From positions 1 to 38,442 of the forward strand of contig JAFMCI010000016.1 in the NCBI GenBank assembly GCA_017857855.1: a stretch of 38,442 bases of DNA. Direction: 5' to 3'. Positions 8,564 to 38,271 of this stretch are shown here, one piece after another (position 1 is the first letter of the stretch; each line of letters starts with the position of its first letter). The notes below the pieces were generated by a model, which saw only the letters and a list, made by a program, of their open reading frames with translations, had not been told where the DNA came from and did no database searches. This DNA is from Bacteroidia bacterium (GTDB lineage Bacteria > Bacteroidota > Bacteroidia > NS11-12g > UBA9320). A program made the position numbers and the translations under genes.

Positions 8564-9283
8564 ATGCAATCACCAACAATGGCCACAGCGGCACAATTAG
8601 CAAATGATAAAGTAATTAGTAGAGAAGTAATTAGTTACGGCGAAACTAAAGATGGCAAGTATAGAGCTTTTATTAAAACAGTCGGGTATACGACTGATAA
8701 AGTTGATGAAAGATCTGATGCTAACTTAAGACTAGAAACCTCATTTTATTACATCCCTTCAGTTGGTTTGTCAGAAGAGACAGCGATTGCGATACTTATG
8801 TCTATGGCGACATACGCCTTCTTGGGAACGGATTACCAAGAGATCGGTACTAAGTGTATCCAGGAATTAATAAGTGGGACGAAGAAGCCAGCCGCAAAGA
8901 CCGCAGCAAAAGAAAAACCAGCAGCAAAGGCAGTTAAAGAAGCAGCACCCGAAGCAGCTCCAGCAGTTGAGCAAGAGGTTGAACAAGAGAAAGAGGCACC
9001 AGCTCCGGCAAAAAAAGCTCCAAGAAAAAAGGCAGCTCCGAAGAAACCAAAAACAATCGCTTACAATAGAGAAAACAACGAGCACAAAAAGCAGCTTGGA
9101 TCTTTATTTAACGATGCGGAACCAACTTGGGGAGAAGACGAATTAAAAACAAAGATAGCAGTAAGTCTTTCTTTAAGTCTAGCTGGGAAGCCGTTCTTAG
9201 ATACTAAAGGTGAGGTTTTAGAAAGTGTTATTGAAATGATTACTGATGCTTTTAACAAGCCGTCAGGTGTCGATGCTTTATAA
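8564..9283 (+). CDS. Two-domain protein with Ala/Lys/Pro/Glu-rich linker, function unknown
   Basis: Folded-looking N- and C-terminal parts joined by a low-complexity AKPE linker (KKPAAKTAAKEKPAAK...APRKKAAPKKPK). Confidence 0.65.
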   Translation: MQSPTMATAAQLANDKVISREVISYGETKDGKYRAFIKTVGYTTDKVDERSDANLRLETSFYYIPSVGLSEETAIAILMSMATYAFLGTDYQEIGTKCIQELISGTKKPAAKTAAKEKPAAKAVKEAAPEAAPAVEQEVEQEKEAPAPAKKAPRKKAAPKKPKTIAYNRENNEHKKQLGSLFNDAEPTWGEDELKTKIAVSLSLSLAGKPFLDTKGEVLESVIEMITDAFNKPSGVDAL

Positions 9284-9774
9284 TGGATAATAATTGTTGG
9301 ATGGATGTTCTTGGGTACGAGTCTTTCTATAGAGTATCTGACGGAGGGGATGTCTTCTCTAAGATACGAAATAGAAAGGTAAAACCGTACCTTACCAAGA
9401 AGGGCTATCTCCACATTGATTTAAGGGGCAAGACTGTTACTGTACACAGGCTTGTCCTATCCCATTTCGGTAGTGTTAAGGATATGGAAACTCTTCAAGT
9501 AAATCATCTGAACTCTGATAAAACGGATAACAGAAGAGTAAATTTGGAGTGGTGTACCAATCAAGAGAATAGTGACCACTCTTGGGCCAATGGTAGACAA
9601 GCTGCTAGGGGATCTTCTTGTAATTCTAAATTAAAAGAATCACACGTACTGGCTATAAAAGCATTGTTGAGAGAAGGTCTATTTACCCAAAAGGAAATAG
9701 GGGAAAGGTACGGGGTAGCAAAATCGACTATAGGTAAAATAGCGACTGGTAAAAATTGGAGTTGGTTAAAATGA
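9283..9774 (+). CDS. NUMOD4-HNH homing endonuclease with C-terminal HTH
   Basis: MDVLGYESFYRVSDGGDV, VHRLV...VNHLNSDKTDNRRVNLEWCT, HTH FTQKEIGERYGVAKSTIGKI. Confidence 0.85.
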   Translation: MDNNCWMDVLGYESFYRVSDGGDVFSKIRNRKVKPYLTKKGYLHIDLRGKTVTVHRLVLSHFGSVKDMETLQVNHLNSDKTDNRRVNLEWCTNQENSDHSWANGRQAARGSSCNSKLKESHVLAIKALLREGLFTQKEIGERYGVAKSTIGKIATGKNWSWLK

Positions 9775-11081: not shown

Positions 11082-11657
11082 ATGAAAAGAACTAATGTAA
11101 AAATACACGCCATTAAAAAGGCGACTGAGAAAGAATCGGAAGCATTTAAAGCCGCCGCTAAAGAGTTTGAGTTTGAAATAAATGATCCCGATTTCTGGTA
11201 TGATGTTTCTAGGGTGTACAACAATTGGCACCACCGCAAATTGCTGGCACCTTACAACTATGAGAAGCAATCGTTTAAGTTATTTAAAGAAATGGTTTTA
11301 TCTGGTGTTGATGATTTCAATAAAGAAAAAGATTATGCTATCGATATCTCAGTTTCCTTCTACTACTCATGGAGAAGTGTAGTTGGATACACGCTACCAT
11401 CAACATGGTTTACGTGGGTCAATAGGAATATATTCAAAGGGTTTGACCTAGCGGATATAGCAGGAAACCAAGCACATGAGTACTTACATAATTGTGGACT
11501 TGATCATCCTGGTACTGATAGGCAATCGGTAGTTTACCGTTTCGGTTATCTTGTTAAGGATAGAATAAAAACAAGACTAGGTATCGCCCCTAAAGTAGTG
11601 TATAGACGTTCTTTTTGGACAAGGGTTAAATCATTTATGAGGGCGGTATTTTTATGA
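11082..11657 (+). CDS. Zinc metallopeptidase-like protein (HExxHxxGxxH)
   Basis: QAHEYLHNCGLDHPGTDRQSVVYRFG contains a full HExxHxxGxxH metzincin/gluzincin-like signature. Confidence 0.6.
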   Translation: MKRTNVKIHAIKKATEKESEAFKAAAKEFEFEINDPDFWYDVSRVYNNWHHRKLLAPYNYEKQSFKLFKEMVLSGVDDFNKEKDYAIDISVSFYYSWRSVVGYTLPSTWFTWVNRNIFKGFDLADIAGNQAHEYLHNCGLDHPGTDRQSVVYRFGYLVKDRIKTRLGIAPKVVYRRSFWTRVKSFMRAVFL

Positions 11658-12121
11658 GCGAAGAGTGGAGGATCATACCAGAACATCCTGGGTATAAGGT
11701 GTCTAATCAGGGTAGAGTAGTAAACAGTATAACGGGGGTTATCCGAAAGTTATCTAATGACGGAGCTGGGTATAAAAATATCTCTTTAAACAGAAAAACC
11801 AAACGAGTCCATAGATTAGTTATGTTAAGCTTCTCTCCACTAGAAGACGCAAGTAAATACCAAGTTAACCACTTAAATAGGGATAGGTCCGACAATAGAT
11901 TGACCAACCTAGAGTGGTGCACTAGTTCCGAAAATTTAAAACATGCTTTCCGTAATGGAAGAAAGGCAAGTTATAAAGTAAAACTAAGTGACTCCGAGGT
12001 AATGGAGATACGAGGTATGTTATCCAAGGGCAACACCCAACAAAAGGTGGCTGACTTCTTCGGGATAAGTAGATCTCACGTAAGTACTTTATGGTTAAGA
12101 AATTCGAGGAGAAACATATGA
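11654..12121 (+). CDS. NUMOD4-HNH homing endonuclease with C-terminal HTH
   Basis: EEWRIIPEHPGYKVSNQGRVVNS, VHRLV...VNHLNRDRSDNRLTNLEWCT, HTH TQQKVADFFGISRSHVSTL. ATGA overlaps at both ends. Confidence 0.85.
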   Translation: MSEEWRIIPEHPGYKVSNQGRVVNSITGVIRKLSNDGAGYKNISLNRKTKRVHRLVMLSFSPLEDASKYQVNHLNRDRSDNRLTNLEWCTSSENLKHAFRNGRKASYKVKLSDSEVMEIRGMLSKGNTQQKVADFFGISRSHVSTLWLRNSRRNI

Positions 12122-12798: not shown

Positions 12799-13149
12799 CT
12801 ATTTTTTACGATCAAAGCCGACTAACCATACTCTCATGTTTTCCATCCAAGTAGTAAGAACGCCATATTCTGCAGGGGAATACCCGATTACTTTATGGCA
12901 TTCTCTTAGGTCCAGTACGATACTTTCTGATATAGGGCCAATGTACCCTCTTTCAACTCTATAATTACGTGATATACAGCCAGATCCATCTAGAGGGATG
13001 TATAATTTCCCGTCTATTTCTACATGTTCTGCCAGGAAAACGGATAATTGTTCTTGATCGTTTGGGGTTTTAGGTTGTTCTTGACCGTTACGATTACGGC
13101 AACTTATTATGAGCATCCCTAGCATCATTAATGTTATCAGCGTTCTCAT
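12799..13149 (-). CDS. Lipoprotein, o-spanin candidate
   Basis: Lipobox MRTLITLMMLGMLIISC. Start overlaps the upstream small membrane ORF by 56 nt in another frame. Confidence 0.55.
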   Translation of the reverse strand: MRTLITLMMLGMLIISCRNRNGQEQPKTPNDQEQLSVFLAEHVEIDGKLYIPLDGSGCISRNYRVERGYIGPISESIVLDLRECHKVIGYSPAEYGVLTTWMENMRVWLVGFDRKK

Positions 13150-13294
13150 AGTCTTCCACCTTCCCTGTGTTCTTCTTCTTCAACTTACGTTTTCTCCACC
13201 AATCTTTGAGGGATTCTTTAACGTAAATAAATAGGGCCACCACCGACTTTTGAATCAGTGGCATTAATAATGTATGTACTAATTTGGCCCACAT
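13094..13294 (-). CDS. Small membrane protein (lysis-cassette candidate)
   Basis: Hydrophobic LVHTLLMPLIQKSVVALFIYV followed by a basic/polar tail. Confidence 0.5.
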   Translation of the reverse strand: MWAKLVHTLLMPLIQKSVVALFIYVKESLKDWWRKRKLKKKNTGKVEDYENADNINDARDAHNKLP

Positions 13295-13295
13295 A

Positions 13296-13514
13296 CTATA
13301 AACTTACTTCGATCTTATCTGCCATGTCTCTAGCAACACCTTGGATAGCTGCAAAAGCAACATCATCTATTGCATTTTCAGTGTCCTTCACTAGTTCTTC
13401 AACGATATCAATCGCAAGATGAGCAAGACCTTTTGCTCCATCATTTAAAGAATCTTCTAGTAAATTAATTCCTCTAAGCTGGGCCATCGCCATTAATTTG
13501 TCTTTGTTTAACAT
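13296..13514 (-). CDS. Hypothetical small protein
   Basis: 72-aa ORF with upstream GGAG (ctctcc on the plus strand), in an operon with neighbours. Confidence 0.5.
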   Translation of the reverse strand: MLNKDKLMAMAQLRGINLLEDSLNDGAKGLAHLAIDIVEELVKDTENAIDDVAFAAIQGVARDMADKIEVSL

Positions 13515-13528
13515 AATACTCTCCTATT

Positions 13529-13873
13529 CTATGTGGACTTTAACTCTTCCACTGTTTTTTTTAAAGCCTCGAACTCCAGCCCCATTAATTGCTGTTTGGT
13601 AACAGATTTATTTACCACCTCATGATACCTTTCTCTTAGAATGTTCATATCATTCTCAAGCCCGGTTATCATGTGCCTGTGGTCATCCAGTCTTTGATCT
13701 TTAGTAATATCTTTCTCAACTAATTTAGTGATACTAATATTTAAACCGCCGATCGATGTTTGGATTTTATCCATAGAAGAGCGGAAACCGTTAAGTATAA
13801 ATACTCCAAAGAAAAAACATAAAGTTGTTATCCCTTGTAAGACTATTAAAATAATATTTCCACTAGACTCCAT
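13529..13873 (-). CDS. N-terminal TM plus coiled-coil protein (holin / i-spanin-like candidate)
   Basis: IILIVLQGITTLCFFFGVFIL TM segment followed by long helical/coiled-coil sequence. Confidence 0.5.
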   Translation of the reverse strand: MESSGNIILIVLQGITTLCFFFGVFILNGFRSSMDKIQTSIGGLNISITKLVEKDITKDQRLDDHRHMITGLENDMNILRERYHEVVNKSVTKQQLMGLEFEALKKTVEELKST

Positions 13874-13874
13874 T

Positions 13875-14315
13875 TTACAACCCTTCTTTTATTCTGAGGT
13901 ACTCAATTAGATCTTCTAACTTAGCAGAACCGTCTAACAGTTTAGCTTTTATAGATTCAATCGTAATACCATCAGCGTCTTTTTTAGCTTTTTTAACGTT
14001 TACTTCAGCGGTGATATCAGTCTCAGTTATTGTGTATTCAACAGGTCTTTCACATTCTTGACCGATAACCACATCTTCCCTGTCCTTAAGATCTCTCATT
14101 TGAAGGCAATCAGTTTGATCGGTAAATAACTCCCACCTTTGCTTCTTACCCCATGAATCGTTAGAAATATTATCTGCTTTCCAGGTATCAACTTCGAGTT
14201 GGGTTTTAAAGTTACAATTCCCGCCGCAGGGACTTTGCCCATCTGACATAGTAACAGTGACCGCTATTTCGGCGTAGGAAGTTAAACTTAATAGCATAAA
14301 AATTAAATATTTCAT
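13875..14315 (-). CDS. Exported protein of unknown function
   Basis: Signal peptide MKYLIFMLLSLTSYA followed by a Cys-containing soluble domain. Confidence 0.55.
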   Translation of the reverse strand: MKYLIFMLLSLTSYAEIAVTVTMSDGQSPCGGNCNFKTQLEVDTWKADNISNDSWGKKQRWELFTDQTDCLQMRDLKDREDVVIGQECERPVEYTITETDITAEVNVKKAKKDADGITIESIKAKLLDGSAKLEDLIEYLRIKEGL

Positions 14316-17300
14316 TATTTTATCCCCTCAATGGTTACATAGTTGTAGGTAGCATCAGTATGTGGGGTAAGTGCCCCGCCTGATCCTTGGATCGGTCTTA
14401 TGTCAATATAGTCGCCCTTGACTAAATCTAAAGTCGTACCTCCGGAGACAGAAAGGAATATCGACGAAGCTGAGGTTGCCGGTAGTTGTTTATATCCAAG
14501 GTTGGAGTGGATTGCCCCGTTCTTCCATAAAGCTATACCTGCTGTTTCTGCAATCCCCCATCCAGTTGTTGTTGAGAATAACAGGTTTGTTTTTACGGAA
14601 TACTTTGAGGTTACTGGTGCCGTAAACTTCCAAGCAGCTCCAGTAGTAACAGCTCCATGAGTGTCATACTCTAAATCTTCAAAATCCATTATGGTTGATG
14701 CATTATCAGGGATACTAGGAAGACCATTATTACTAGAAAACCTAGCTGCAACCGTTTCGGTTTCAAGAACTGTTTGAGGGGATGCTAATTTAGCTCCACC
14801 AAAAAAGGAACCACTTGTGGATGCTCCTACAAAGGTAAGCGCCCCTGAAAAAGTTTCTATAAAGTAAGCTCTTACTGTATCTCCTTTTACTAGATCCAAA
14901 GTTCTACTACCCGATTGAGTAGGTTGCATTATAGATCCAGGTGTTGCTTGGTATTCGTACCTAAAGAGCCTATGGTTAACAGAACCATTAACCTCTAGAT
15001 CCATAGCGACTACTTCCCCCGCCGAAGGAGTGATAGAAAACTCCATTCCTGCATTAAATATATATTTGCCTGATTCTGGTATTGTAAACTCATAGGTAGA
15101 TGTATCATATGATGCGGTTGTATCGTAGGCTTCTGTATCAAAATTTAAAGTACCGCTACCCGAAATAACTTGATTTGCCGATCTTGTTGCTAAAAAAGAT
15201 ACTTCCCTACCGCCTAGGTCTTGGCTCATTCTAGCCGTCGATTCCCAGCCAACTATGGGCACTCTATAAGTTAAAGTTACTATATCACTAGCTCCTACAG
15301 TAAAAGGAGTAGTTATATTTACCGCTGATGATTGTGCTGTAACAGCTGAATCGACCATAACTCTAATCGCAGTTGTGGAACTATAGAGGGCATGTATATC
15401 CCAGTTATTCCCGCCAGATTCGTATATAGTACCTTTTGCATTAATTGAACCTCTCGTGCTAGTTCCACCTGGTAGCTTGGCCGTGTCCATAACATGACCG
15501 GATGGCAGGTTTATCGTTAAGTCGGCGGATGAAGGTGCTGATGAAAGAGTCAGGTTTACTGAGGCTACAAGAAACTCGTTTTCCCTCCAGTATTTACCAA
15601 CATAGGTTGTACCATTCCAGGAACCGGTTGTGGTTAAAGTCCCTAAGTTGGTAGCTATTGAGCCAAATGCTAATTCTGTAGGACCAACGGCGACTTGATC
15701 TGAGTAAGCTGAAAACCCGGTAGTGTTAGTAGCATCAGTTTGCATTACAATTAATCTATAAGAAGTTGAATCACTTGCAGTTTGGAATTGGAAATAATGA
15801 ACGCCTTTTCCACTCTTTGTATCTTCGCCATTAACTCTTATGATATTTGTGTTCGTTTTATCGTATATAAATACTTTTACTTCATCATCGTTGAAGCCAG
15901 CATCAGAAAAATCATACCAAAAAGATCCTACTAATTTACGTGCCTTCATCCCAGAATCAATATCAAAATCAACCGAGCAGCCATGTCCTTGAACATCACT
16001 GGCTGCAGCGACAATTTTCAAATCCCCTGTTAATCTTAAGGGAGTCGTAGTATTTCTTGCACATGTCCAGTTAGCGTTTCCGCCACCAGTTCCATCTACA
16101 GGAACAGTGACAGCACCATCATCAAATGCAACCCAGTTACCTACACTTACTTCAAAGTCACTATCTTTAGTATCTTGTAAATAATTAATTCCGCCAGAAC
16201 CAGAACCACCAAGATCACCCCAACTACTATTAGCAAAACCTTCAAACGATTCAGAATCAGAGTTGTATCGGATATCTCCATTAGCTCCCGTCGGTCTTTG
16301 AGCTAAAGTACCATTTGGTAAACCTAGAGCGGTAGTTGAGACAATATCTAAATCACCCGTAGTTAAATCACCTTTTATAAGATCAGCAATATTAAGTTCG
16401 GAACTTGCTGTGGGTGAACTAGTCGAAATATTATAACCAATTAGTATATTATCTGAAGCTGTAGTTGATGTAGTCCCAGTATTATAACCAAGCATTAAGT
16501 TTCTACTACCTACTGTTATATTTTTACCCGCTTCAGAACCTAAAGTAGTGTTCCCTGCTGATGTGCTAAATAGATCCTGCAATCCGTGATAACCGACTGC
16601 TGTATTATTAGATCCTGTAAGATTACCAGCACCACTACTAGCGGTAGAAGCCCCAAAAAAACTATTGTTATTTCCTGCAAAAACTTTTAGACCGGCTAAA
16701 TTTCCGACTCCAGTATTATTTACACCTACTGTGTTAGTAGTAAGAGCACTCCCGCCTATCCCTACGTTTGCGTTAGTAGTTAAATCATCTGCGGCACCAG
16801 CACCACTACCCATGAATACAGAACCTCCTAGACCTGTTTGGTCTATCCGTCCATCATCATCAATAACAACAGAAGAGTCCTGGATTAGTTTCCCAGTGGT
16901 ACTATCCCATCTTGCGATGGCGTTATCAGTTGAACTTACTCCACCTGAAACAGAACCATCTATATCGCCCCAAGCGGAACCATCGTATCCCTCAAAGGCC
17001 GTAGTCGTTGAGTTAAACCTGATCATACCGCTATTAGGAGAACCACTTCTTTCACCTGTCGTTCCTACTGGAAGATCAAGTTGTCCCGTTCCTGCCATTA
17101 AAATATCGGCTGCAGAAGTAAGCCCGTTTATAGAAAGATCACCATTTTTATCCCAGGAAAATAAAGAAACCGCTGATATTTTAGCGTGATCTTCAACTGG
17201 GTTAGTGGATAATCCGTTTCTAGTTCTTGTAATTCTAATTAAAAATTCTGCCCCTACACCTACTGCCCATGAAGGAATATCAGCCTCAAGCCATACAACA

Positions 17301-19021
17301 AGACCAGTATTTCTAAAACCACTCGTACCATCGATAGGTGAGAAAGTGGCCCAAGTTCCTGATCCAGTACTGTACTCAAATGTAGGTTGTACGTTTTGTG
17401 AAGCGGCTGTCTCTAATACAAATTCTAAAGTTTCAAATTTAGAAGCATCTCCAAAAGTTATAGAGTCATTGTCAGCTACAAAGAAGTCTACGTTGTTAGC
17501 TCCACCAGGGTCAGAAGTTGTCCAAGCAGTTATGTTATCTACTGCTATGGTTAAGGCACTATCCATATCTATGAATGTCCCTGACTCTTGTTCTATTACA
17601 TTTACCGTTGGTCCAACACCAAGAGCGTATACGGTTGCTGATCCTTCAGTCGCTAGGACTTCCATCCCGTAAACATCCCCACCAGTAGCTAAGGTTTCAT
17701 CTATGTTTACAAGTATTGCAGCCTCGGCAGATCCAGCAGCTAAAGCTCCCGTTACATAATCGATATCTAAAGCTTCATTTCCTCCGAAACCAGCAGCGTG
17801 CATATCAATTTCTAGCGCATTATTATCGGAGGTTGTTGCTGTGTAATCTATTATGGTTTCGCCATTAGAAGTTAATGAGTCTACCGTAAGAAGACCGGCT
17901 GCACTTAAGCTCATTTTAGAAGTTGAACTTAAATTATGTGAATCAGTAACATCGGTCCACCACTCAAATCCAAAGTTTCCATCTACTGCATTTACTGTTT
18001 TATTATAACCCTCGTTGTAGATAACCATAGATTCGGCTATTCCAGGAACGGCTGTATATCCACTACCTACCATAGAGATTGATGATCTATGAGAAGCATC
18101 GTTTAACATTGTGTATGATGTACTCGCCGAAGTCCCTGCGTTTTGATTTACAAGTTGGTACCTGACTATACCATTATGGTCACTAGCTAATGTATGATGT
18201 TCTATGTCTATAAAGATAACACCTAGAGAAGCATGGACTCTCACAACTCTAGCAATCTTCATTATTCCTTGTACCCCTGTAGGATGTGTAGCTGTCAATT
18301 GACCTGCTGTAGAATCAAGATACAAATCATCACCTTCTGTATATGAAGAAGTATCTATTCCCGATAACTCTCCAAAATTTTGGAAAGTTATAGTGGCGTT
18401 ATTTGCACCTGCTTCAGTAGCGACGGCGATAGCATCGATTTTTGAAAAGTCATTATTAATGGCAAGACTAGCTTCCATCTGATTTCCGGTTGCTCCATTT
18501 ATGTAAACAACTTCACCAAGGGCAACACCGGCTGCTTCATCAACTCTTGCTGAGAAAGTTACTGGGTGCTCTTCTAGTGGAGAGGCTTCATCCCAATTTG
18601 CAATATCTCCTGCGAAAGTAGCCCCTGCAGTATGCCCTGTGTTTGCTATCCATATTTTAAAATCTGGTGTTGTATAAACAAAGGCCCCTGTTCCGTATGT
18701 TGTTCCGGTTAACCAGGCAGATAAACCCGTCCCAGAACCAGCACCTACCCAAGATGCTCCCGTCCAATACTCAGTTGTAGCTGTGTCTGTGTTGTAGACA
18801 CAAGATCCGGTGGCGGGGGAAGATATTGCGTCCCTTTGGATTTCAGTCATTTTTGGACAAGGTATAGAAGACTCGGTGGTGGATTGAACTATAAAAGTCG
18901 CTCCCGCCTCTGGTTTCGTATTATCCCCTATGGCTATTGTCCCAGGAAATAGGGTGTATTTTGCTTCAACCGAACCGATTAAGGTCAAGGTCACGCATAA
19001 AAGTAGTATTAAATTTTTCAT
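14315..19021 (-). CDS. Giant fiber-like protein with N-terminal signal peptide and two C1q-like C-terminal domains
   Basis: MKNLILLLCVTLTLIGSVEA signal peptide with GGAG SD. Three modules like QRxAxxxPxxGxxxYNxDTxxxExWxGxxW. YadA/haemagglutinin-like NNTAVGYxxL, NTTLGSEAG, NLMLGYNT repeats. Two C-terminal segments with C1q/TNF-like ...AWKFTAPVTSKYSV.../...EFTIPESGKYIFNA... and ..LDLVKGDxxxxY/R.. motifs. Confidence 0.75.
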   Translation of the reverse strand: MKNLILLLCVTLTLIGSVEAKYTLFPGTIAIGDNTKPEAGATFIVQSTTESSIPCPKMTEIQRDAISSPATGSCVYNTDTATTEYWTGASWVGAGSGTGLSAWLTGTTYGTGAFVYTTPDFKIWIANTGHTAGATFAGDIANWDEASPLEEHPVTFSARVDEAAGVALGEVVYINGATGNQMEASLAINNDFSKIDAIAVATEAGANNATITFQNFGELSGIDTSSYTEGDDLYLDSTAGQLTATHPTGVQGIMKIARVVRVHASLGVIFIDIEHHTLASDHNGIVRYQLVNQNAGTSASTSYTMLNDASHRSSISMVGSGYTAVPGIAESMVIYNEGYNKTVNAVDGNFGFEWWTDVTDSHNLSSTSKMSLSAAGLLTVDSLTSNGETIIDYTATTSDNNALEIDMHAAGFGGNEALDIDYVTGALAAGSAEAAILVNIDETLATGGDVYGMEVLATEGSATVYALGVGPTVNVIEQESGTFIDMDSALTIAVDNITAWTTSDPGGANNVDFFVADNDSITFGDASKFETLEFVLETAASQNVQPTFEYSTGSGTWATFSPIDGTSGFRNTGLVVWLEADIPSWAVGVGAEFLIRITRTRNGLSTNPVEDHAKISAVSLFSWDKNGDLSINGLTSAADILMAGTGQLDLPVGTTGERSGSPNSGMIRFNSTTTAFEGYDGSAWGDIDGSVSGGVSSTDNAIARWDSTTGKLIQDSSVVIDDDGRIDQTGLGGSVFMGSGAGAADDLTTNANVGIGGSALTTNTVGVNNTGVGNLAGLKVFAGNNNSFFGASTASSGAGNLTGSNNTAVGYHGLQDLFSTSAGNTTLGSEAGKNITVGSRNLMLGYNTGTTSTTASDNILIGYNISTSSPTASSELNIADLIKGDLTTGDLDIVSTTALGLPNGTLAQRPTGANGDIRYNSDSESFEGFANSSWGDLGGSGSGGINYLQDTKDSDFEVSVGNWVAFDDGAVTVPVDGTGGGNANWTCARNTTTPLRLTGDLKIVAAASDVQGHGCSVDFDIDSGMKARKLVGSFWYDFSDAGFNDDEVKVFIYDKTNTNIIRVNGEDTKSGKGVHYFQFQTASDSTSYRLIVMQTDATNTTGFSAYSDQVAVGPTELAFGSIATNLGTLTTTGSWNGTTYVGKYWRENEFLVASVNLTLSSAPSSADLTINLPSGHVMDTAKLPGGTSTRGSINAKGTIYESGGNNWDIHALYSSTTAIRVMVDSAVTAQSSAVNITTPFTVGASDIVTLTYRVPIVGWESTARMSQDLGGREVSFLATRSANQVISGSGTLNFDTEAYDTTASYDTSTYEFTIPESGKYIFNAGMEFSITPSAGEVVAMDLEVNGSVNHRLFRYEYQATPGSIMQPTQSGSRTLDLVKGDTVRAYFIETFSGALTFVGASTSGSFFGGAKLASPQTVLETETVAARFSSNNGLPSIPDNASTIMDFEDLEYDTHGAVTTGAAWKFTAPVTSKYSVKTNLLFSTTTGWGIAETAGIALWKNGAIHSNLGYKQLPATSASSIFLSVSGGTTLDLVKGDYIDIRPIQGSGGALTPHTDATYNYVTIEGIK

Positions 19022-19032
19022 TGTCGCTCCGT

Positions 19033-20244
19033 CTAACTTATTATAACTGGGATTTCTTTGCCAAGCCAAGTGATCTCACCAGAATATCCTGTTCCTAGCA
19101 TATTATCTGATGTATATGAAACCAAGCCTACACCGAATCCATCCGTGGCCACGGTGAAGACAAGGCCATCAGGTTCTCCATCGTTGAGCACAACGGTAGA
19201 TTCCCTTCCAATAAACCATGCTCCACTTATGTAATGCATAACTAGGGTGACTTGCACGAAACGAGTTTCTATACTATCACTTCGTTTTATCAGGCATGTT
19301 GCCCTAGTAAACTCAGTCCCAGTGTTATTTCTGGAGAAAGCATCTCCATATTTAGGAGCTTCTGCTATATCTGCACCAGCTCCTTCTAAGGCTATTCCAG
19401 TAACCTCATTATTTTGAATTGCTTGAGTCCCTGAATACTGATTAATATCAAGGTTATTTTCTACGGTTGTCAGTCTCGCTCTAGCATCTGCAATCAAAAC
19501 ATCTTGTGCCGTTTGAGCAGTATCTATCAAAGTTTGGGTGTAGTAATCAAGTAAACGATTTGCTATTGCTTGCTCAGTTCTTAAAGCTGTCATGGCCTTA
19601 GTATTTTCTACACCAGCTTCGGCTTCTGTTTGGTTAGCAATAGCTGTGATTAAACCATCAGCTCCATCACCGCCATTTGTTCCGGTGGCACCAGTAGCAC
19701 CTGTGGCACCAGTAGCACCTGTGGCACCAGTAGCACCTGTGGCACCTGTGGCACCAGTCGCCCCTGCCACCGCAGTTAAGTTTTCAAGTGCAGTACCATT
19801 CCACCCTAAGTATAAACCGTCTTCCGCTTCTGGAAGTGCGGTCGGAAGGTTGTCGGCAGATCTAGGGAAGAGCAAAGCTCTATCTAGTTTATCATTAACT
19901 TCTTGTAACATTAAGGTTAACCGATCCGTTTGATCTTCAGTAAGTTGATCAGCGGTCGGGAAGTCTGTTTCTTGGTTGATAACTGTTTCTCTATAAATCA
20001 ATATTTCGTCAGTAACTAAAGGAGCTATAGCGTATACGATCTTTGTAGGATCGGTAGCATCATCAAATGACCAATGAGTAGGGGCTGTTTGTGCTGTCTC
20101 AGTCGGAGGGGAAACGGTAGTATCCCTCTTAATAACTTTTATACTTGTGACTTCACCAGATAAATAAGCAAAGTTCAGAGCAAAGTCTACGTTTGCGCCA
20201 TCCCCTGCGTATTTTATCTGGGTATCTAAATCGGCAATACTCAT
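19033..20244 (-). CDS. T7-type tail fiber/adaptor with collagen-like (GAT)n stretch
   Basis: N-terminus KYAGDGANVDFALNFAYLSGEVTSIKVI... resembles the T7 gp17 N-terminal domain. AGATGATGATGATGATGATGATGATGTNGGDGADG is a Gly-X-Y repeat. Confidence 0.75.
   Translation of the reverse strand: MSIADLDTQIKYAGDGANVDFALNFAYLSGEVTSIKVIKRDTTVSPPTETAQTAPTHWSFDDATDPTKIVYAIAPLVTDEILIYRETVINQETDFPTADQLTEDQTDRLTLMLQEVNDKLDRALLFPRSADNLPTALPEAEDGLYLGWNGTALENLTAVAGATGATGATGATGATGATGATGATGATGTNGGDGADGLITAIANQTEAEAGVENTKAMTALRTEQAIANRLLDYYTQTLIDTAQTAQDVLIADARARLTTVENNLDINQYSGTQAIQNNEVTGIALEGAGADIAEAPKYGDAFSRNNTGTEFTRATCLIKRSDSIETRFVQVTLVMHYISGAWFIGRESTVVLNDGEPDGLVFTVATDGFGVGLVSYTSDNMLGTGYSGEITWLGKEIPVIIS
19687..19749. 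repeat. 18-bp in-frame tandem repeat (ggcaccagtagcacctgt) within the collagen-like region
   Basis: Three perfect 18-bp copies (19687-19740) followed by a 9-bp partial copy. Confidence 0.9.
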
Positions 20245-37024: not shown

Positions 37025-37144
37025 CTAACTCTCTGTGTCAATCAGATATCTTAAATTCTACATTGTCTGTGTTGGGGTAGGAACTACACACTAACTCTCT
37101 GTGTCAATCAGATATCTTAAATTCTACATTGTCTGTGTTGGGGT
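37025..37144. repeat. 54-bp perfect direct repeat, two copies with 12-bp spacer (66-bp period)
   Basis: ctaactctctgtgtcaatcagatatcttaaattctacattgtctgtgttggggt at 37025-37078 and 37091-37144. Confidence 0.95.
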
Positions 37145-37192
37145 CGGCACTCCAACAAATAGACACGCAACTTTGGGGTGCCGGGTGCTTAT

Positions 37193-38001: not shown

Positions 38002-38271
38002 ATGAAAACAATCGCAACAATCGCAACAATCGCACTACTTACGATCACAACTTCATCATTTGCAGCTTGTAAATTAACTTTAAGCCTTAAAAAAGAAGGT
38101 GCGAAGACCGCATATGCTGACGACGGTGTATCAGTATCGCAAAAGATACAAGACGCGCTAGCAGTTCAATGTACCATCACCAAACGGATAATGCCTAAAT
38201 CTGAAGTAAACGCTATGAAGTTGGCCACCGCTAAAAAGAGATATGAGAAACTACTTAACGAGTCTAAATAA
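38002..38271 (+). CDS. Small exported protein
   Basis: MKTIATIATIALLTITTSSFAA signal peptide, two Cys in the mature region, aggaag upstream. Confidence 0.6.
   Translation: MKTIATIATIALLTITTSSFAACKLTLSLKKEGAKTAYADDGVSVSQKIQDALAVQCTITKRIMPKSEVNAMKLATAKKRYEKLLNESK

Follow-up and report, generated by a model that had tools for sequence, protein, structure and literature searches.

A 1568 amino acid fibre-like protein encoded by a T7-like podovirus is very probably exported by Sec, and we consider it an even call whether this exported protein forms the distal, receptor-binding section of a tail fibre in two parts and meets the virion only at lysis. The argument is built from sequence, in which the signal peptide, the position of the gene, its recurrence in other phages, an exported partner and the pairing of cysteines can be read directly. 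The window, i.e., the whole 38,442-nucleotide stretch analysed, is the entire 38.4-kb contig (C79) of a 2.2-Mb metagenome-assembled genome (MAG).

The giant fibre gene and its product

The features discussed are listed below; all lie on the minus strand.

14315..19021, minus: the giant protein (1568 aa), fibre-like, headed by a Sec-type signal peptide and with C1q domains at its C-terminus (ORF list, Pfam, scripted rule, family profile)
18962..19021, minus: signal peptide, aa 1-20, predicted cleavage A20/K21 (scripted rule and our own reading of the sequence)
18749..18961, minus: "PxxMTxxQRDA" fibre unit, aa 21-91, with Cys55/Cys74; widespread in secreted Bacteroidota proteins (sequence comparison)
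17177..17494, minus: unit common to the solved structure PDB 9efk orf18, aa 510-615 (E 8e-10)
16382..16837, minus: YadA-head-like NTAxG repeats, aa ~729-880 (BLASTP to L050; no Pfam match)
15668..16189, minus: carbohydrate-binding-like domain, aa ~945-1118, with Cys987/Cys1015 (sequence comparison)
14795..15196, minus: C1q domain, aa 1276-1409 (Pfam PF00386)
19033..20244, minus: tail fibre/adaptor, 403 aa, T7 gp17-like N-terminus, collagen-like repeat, no signal peptide (Pfam, sub-threshold; scripted rule)
13875..14315, minus: predicted exported partner, 146 aa, signal peptide MKYLIFMLLSLTSYA (scripted rule; conserved after the fibre at six loci)
12799..13873, minus: small genes downstream; they encode, among others, a predicted membrane protein (13529-13873) and a predicted lipoprotein (12799-13149) (scripted rule and our own reading)

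The initial annotation had described an ORF of about 1,568 amino acids, with a quoted N-terminus, and given no strand. The frame is indeed open and the coordinates were right; the gene runs along the minus strand, from an ATG at 19021, with GGAG 5 nt upstream, to a stop at 14315. The frame extends upstream to a TTG at 19069, 16 codons before the ATG; a start there is possible, but a long polar stretch would then precede the signal. The N-terminus reads MKNLILLLCVTLTLIGSVEA followed by KYTLF, with cleavage predicted by our rule after SVEA, and the mature protein would be 1,548 residues long. That rule is a home-made script considering n-region charge, the h-region and an AXA site; it finds n-, h- and c-regions, in agreement with the Sec-type signal first proposed. 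The site is of the SPI type, the rule detecting no lipobox and no Cys at +1, and neither a beta-barrel nor a YadA-type outer-membrane anchor was found in the protein. The only other ORFs of the late minus-strand block that pass the rule, 13875-14315 and 12799-13149, are both small.

Mosaic fibre modules lie between the signal peptide and two C-terminal C1q domains. The C1q assignment held for aa 1276-1409 (PF00386, 32 bits against a cut-off of 23.7, E 1.6e-7), and a second C-terminal, C1q-like unit aligns with PDB C1q chains in the family profile, with weak E-values. The "YadA/haemagglutinin-like repeats" held in part: Pfam gave no match to YadA head or anchor domains at E<=0.1, but aa ~730-880 align with the NTAxGxxAL repeats of L050, a secreted fibre-like protein of Bacteroidota. 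The predicted structure of the C-terminal part was poor (pLDDT 58), too poor for a fold search.

Neighbouring genes and origin of the contig

As had been proposed, the gene belongs to a structural cluster. The window encodes a terminase, a portal and a scaffold, the major head protein, two tail tubular proteins and internal virion proteins; adaptor, fibre and partner come next, and the giant fibre sits between the tail-fibre/adaptor gene and the small membrane/lipoprotein genes. Its place in the T7-like late operon is equal to that of a T7 gp17-type tail fibre, but here a separate gene, upstream, encodes the gp17-like N-terminus; the corresponding domain, PF03906, scores 16.5 bits in the adaptor, below the cut-off of 25.2, and is absent from the giant fibre by Pfam. 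T7 gp17 is not known to carry an export signal.

The partner follows the fibre in six loci (the window, L023, L024, L041, L043 and L078) and conserves an SWGK motif and Cys residues; phi1422 and L087 have no partner gene. Its structure model (pLDDT 72) consists of strands and two C-terminal helices, and a fold search with this model returned no confident structural match. From gene position we would guess that the partner is a putative periplasmic chaperone, and a lysis role for the small genes at 12799..13873 is likewise a guess. Elsewhere in the window, an Amidase_2 protein (1300-1731, Pfam E 2.6e-14), a candidate endolysin, is on the opposite strand and far from the late genes; three NUMOD4/HNH homing-type endonuclease-like proteins (2117-2818, 9283-9774 and 11654-12121, by our own reading) lie amid replication genes; a 64-base repeat in two tandem copies, 95% identical at a spacing of 66, occurs near the terminase genes (37025-37154); and a short plus-strand ORF (38002-38271) has a signal-peptide or lipoprotein-like N-terminus, MKTIATIATIALLTITTSSFAAC.

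The MAG carries what we read as Bacteroidota-type proteins. Shine-Dalgarno starts (at least four matching bases) precede 23 of 33 phage genes versus 0 of 39 in the MAG, and because the phage uses such starts and the MAG is without them, the phage contig (1-38442) was probably mis-binned. The nearest portals to that of the window, at 44% identity, belong to HTVC010P-like Pelagibacter phages. Neither portal nor partner occurred in any of 296 other Bacteroidota genomes, and scans of genome contigs found no relative. A Bacteroidota host was thus rejected as unproven, given the Shine-Dalgarno mismatch and the missing portal and partner.

Recurrence of signal-bearing fibres

Relatives were gathered by searches with the fibre C-terminal domain and with the partner. 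Fibres with a signal peptide were found at 12 distinct phage loci (the window, L004/L022, L023, L024, L025, L028, MW202898, L041, L043, L078, phi1422 gp68 and L087), each immediately preceded by a gene for an adaptor or short tail protein that itself has no signal peptide. The window locus takes in three near-identical IMG/VR contigs, and several relatives' contigs end inside the fibre gene. In L041 and L043, the n-region is long when read from the first ATG and only an inner start passes the scripted rule; the annotated fibre start of MW202898 is 11 codons ahead of the likely one. The signal segments are unrelated in sequence across loci, but charge, hydrophobic core and AXA site are kept. 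The backbones also differ, comprising a T7-like podovirus, tape-measure phages (L025, L028, L041 and L043), a lambda-J type (L078; phrog_31, E 2e-96) and the dwarf myovirus phi1422. By the scripted rule, the fibres of the remote homologues L026 and L027 are without a signal peptide, and the arrangement was not seen in MW202510 or MW202485. Where its tail block ends, MW202510 does encode a 181-aa signal-peptide protein annotated FN3 (L029 21322-21867), but no fibre with such a signal.

The dwarf myovirus phi1422 infects Bdellovibrio bacteriovorus (PMC3391216). In its genome (JQ177062), the tail fibre gp67 is followed, as in the window, by a fibre-like protein with a signal peptide, gp68, whose N-terminus is MKFMIAFIIALFSVTMATA followed by QIKG. 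An hhalign comparison finds one module common to gp68 and the window family (E 1.2e-4), and since L087 matches both families (E 8e-22 to the window family and 8e-89 to gp68), the homology chain from the window to phi1422 holds. L087 (1-8999) is IMG/VR contig 2576861479, and its signal-peptide fibre joins the two families. Apart from its backbone, gp68 differs from the window fibre in having 614 aa, no downstream partner and an annotation as hypothetical only. As a control, the phiPLPE-group sisters of phi1422 that have other hosts (CP-T1, 56 and ZF40) have fibres without a signal peptide. Such a fibre is missing from phi1402, which is also a tailed Bdellovibrio phage; the idea that all Bdellovibrio phages have one was rejected, and an exported fibre is thus not a rule of this host.

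The mature window fibre contains exactly four cysteines, forming two conserved pairs, 55/74 and 987/1015, that both recur in L022 and L023 with unchanged spacing. Among 12 sequences, C987/C1015 is all-or-none: seven have both (the window, L022, L023, L024, L025, L028 and L078, all signal-bearing), five have neither (L041, MW202898 and L087 with a signal, L026 and L027 without), and none has a single one. This is the pattern expected of a disulfide, with which the pairing is consistent; it is supportive, not proof. L041 and L043 bear a signal, yet their mature fibres have no Cys. Overall, the reading of the protein as exported gains support because the signal, though not its sequence, is conserved in 12 loci, the predicted exported neighbour is conserved and the cysteines are paired.

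Alternative readings and a proposed assembly route

Secreted fibre-like Bacteroidota proteins with a "VGIGT..PRMT..QRDA" signature resemble the window fibre: in the two inspected, L048 and L050, a signal peptide is followed by the aa 21-91 unit, and L050 also has NTAxG repeats. Both differ in being chromosomal and lacking Cys at positions 55/74, and the C-terminus of L050 is an S74 chaperone. Of 38 genomes in the family to which the MAG belongs, 21 contain the unit, and the MAG is one of these through the window contig. By description, the layout also resembles that of the mosaic adhesive trimers (MATs) of Bdellovibrio bacteriovorus, which combine a signal peptide, a ~130-aa domain that reportedly follows it in all of them, and a long mosaic fibre of phage-fibre-like modules with C1q/TNF-type or S74 tips (PMC10769870). 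The MATs are secreted or surface cellular proteins, whereas the window protein is phage-borne; a PDB search with the fibre sequence gave no Bdellovibrio-named chain among the matches listed.

These layouts favour display by the infected cell, with the protein serving as a surface adhesin or blocking superinfection, as the initial annotation had allowed beside late addition or release. We regard this as rather improbable: with no outer-membrane, lipobox or YadA-type anchor found, late addition or release is more likely than stable display and superinfection block. T5 Llp-type superinfection-excluding lipoproteins have the lipobox that the giant fibre is without. The late-gene position also argues against display, as does the lack of any evident benefit to a lysogen, given that the window showed no integrase. 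That the hydrophobic N-terminus is instead an uncleaved virion anchor, a non-working signal on an ordinary cytoplasmic fibre, would suit the gene order, and L026 and L027 show similar domains working without export; nevertheless, it is quite improbable in view of the charge, core and AXA site retained by otherwise variable segments, the signal of the next gene and the paired cysteines.

The same evidence for export would also fit a protein that never enters the virion but builds up in the periplasm until lysis frees it to act as a multivalent adhesin or receptor decoy, for example keeping progeny off debris. Pfam finds no T7-type virion-binding N-terminus in the giant protein, and the adaptor alone might already make up a whole short fibre. 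Against this, in the loci examined the gene directly follows the adaptor or last tail gene, the protein has a unit in common with the 818-aa orf18 chain of PDB 9efk, and a C1q binding tip is typical of fibres; we judge a free decoy unlikely.

Addition of the giant fibre to the virion after export is, in our estimate, about evenly balanced. In the two-part fibre that we propose, the adaptor would be synthesised and attached to the virion inside the cytoplasm, while the giant protein, forming the distal, receptor-binding part, would pass through Sec and lose its 20-residue signal. Trimerisation and disulfide formation would follow in the periplasm, where the 146-aa partner may assist folding, and the protein would meet the adaptor once lysis opens the inner membrane. 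Cleavage, trimerisation, docking on the virion and a chaperone role for the partner are steps that we infer. More tentatively, adaptor, exported fibre and exported partner may be a mobile two- or three-gene module common to podo-, sipho- and myovirus-type phages, serving periplasmic folding of disulfide-bonded fibres and two-compartment assembly with its last step at lysis.

The whole virion of tailed phages is thought to be built in the cytoplasm, and we know of no tailed phage that has been demonstrated to add an exported fibre to its virion; a literature search, incomplete in coverage and mostly of titles and abstracts, found no paper on exported tail fibres. The recurrence of an export tag on fibres of unrelated phages suggests that some finish their fibres outside the compartment in which the particle is built. 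If so, the receptor-binding apparatus matures in part beyond the cytoplasm, and the exported fibre would be a tail fibre variant, recurrent across phages. The model is directly testable in the cultured phi1422, and annotation pipelines could adopt the rule of a signal-peptide gene directly after a fibre adaptor. A recurrent exported fibre would change views of how fibres fold, of disulfides and host range, and of the timing of lysis.
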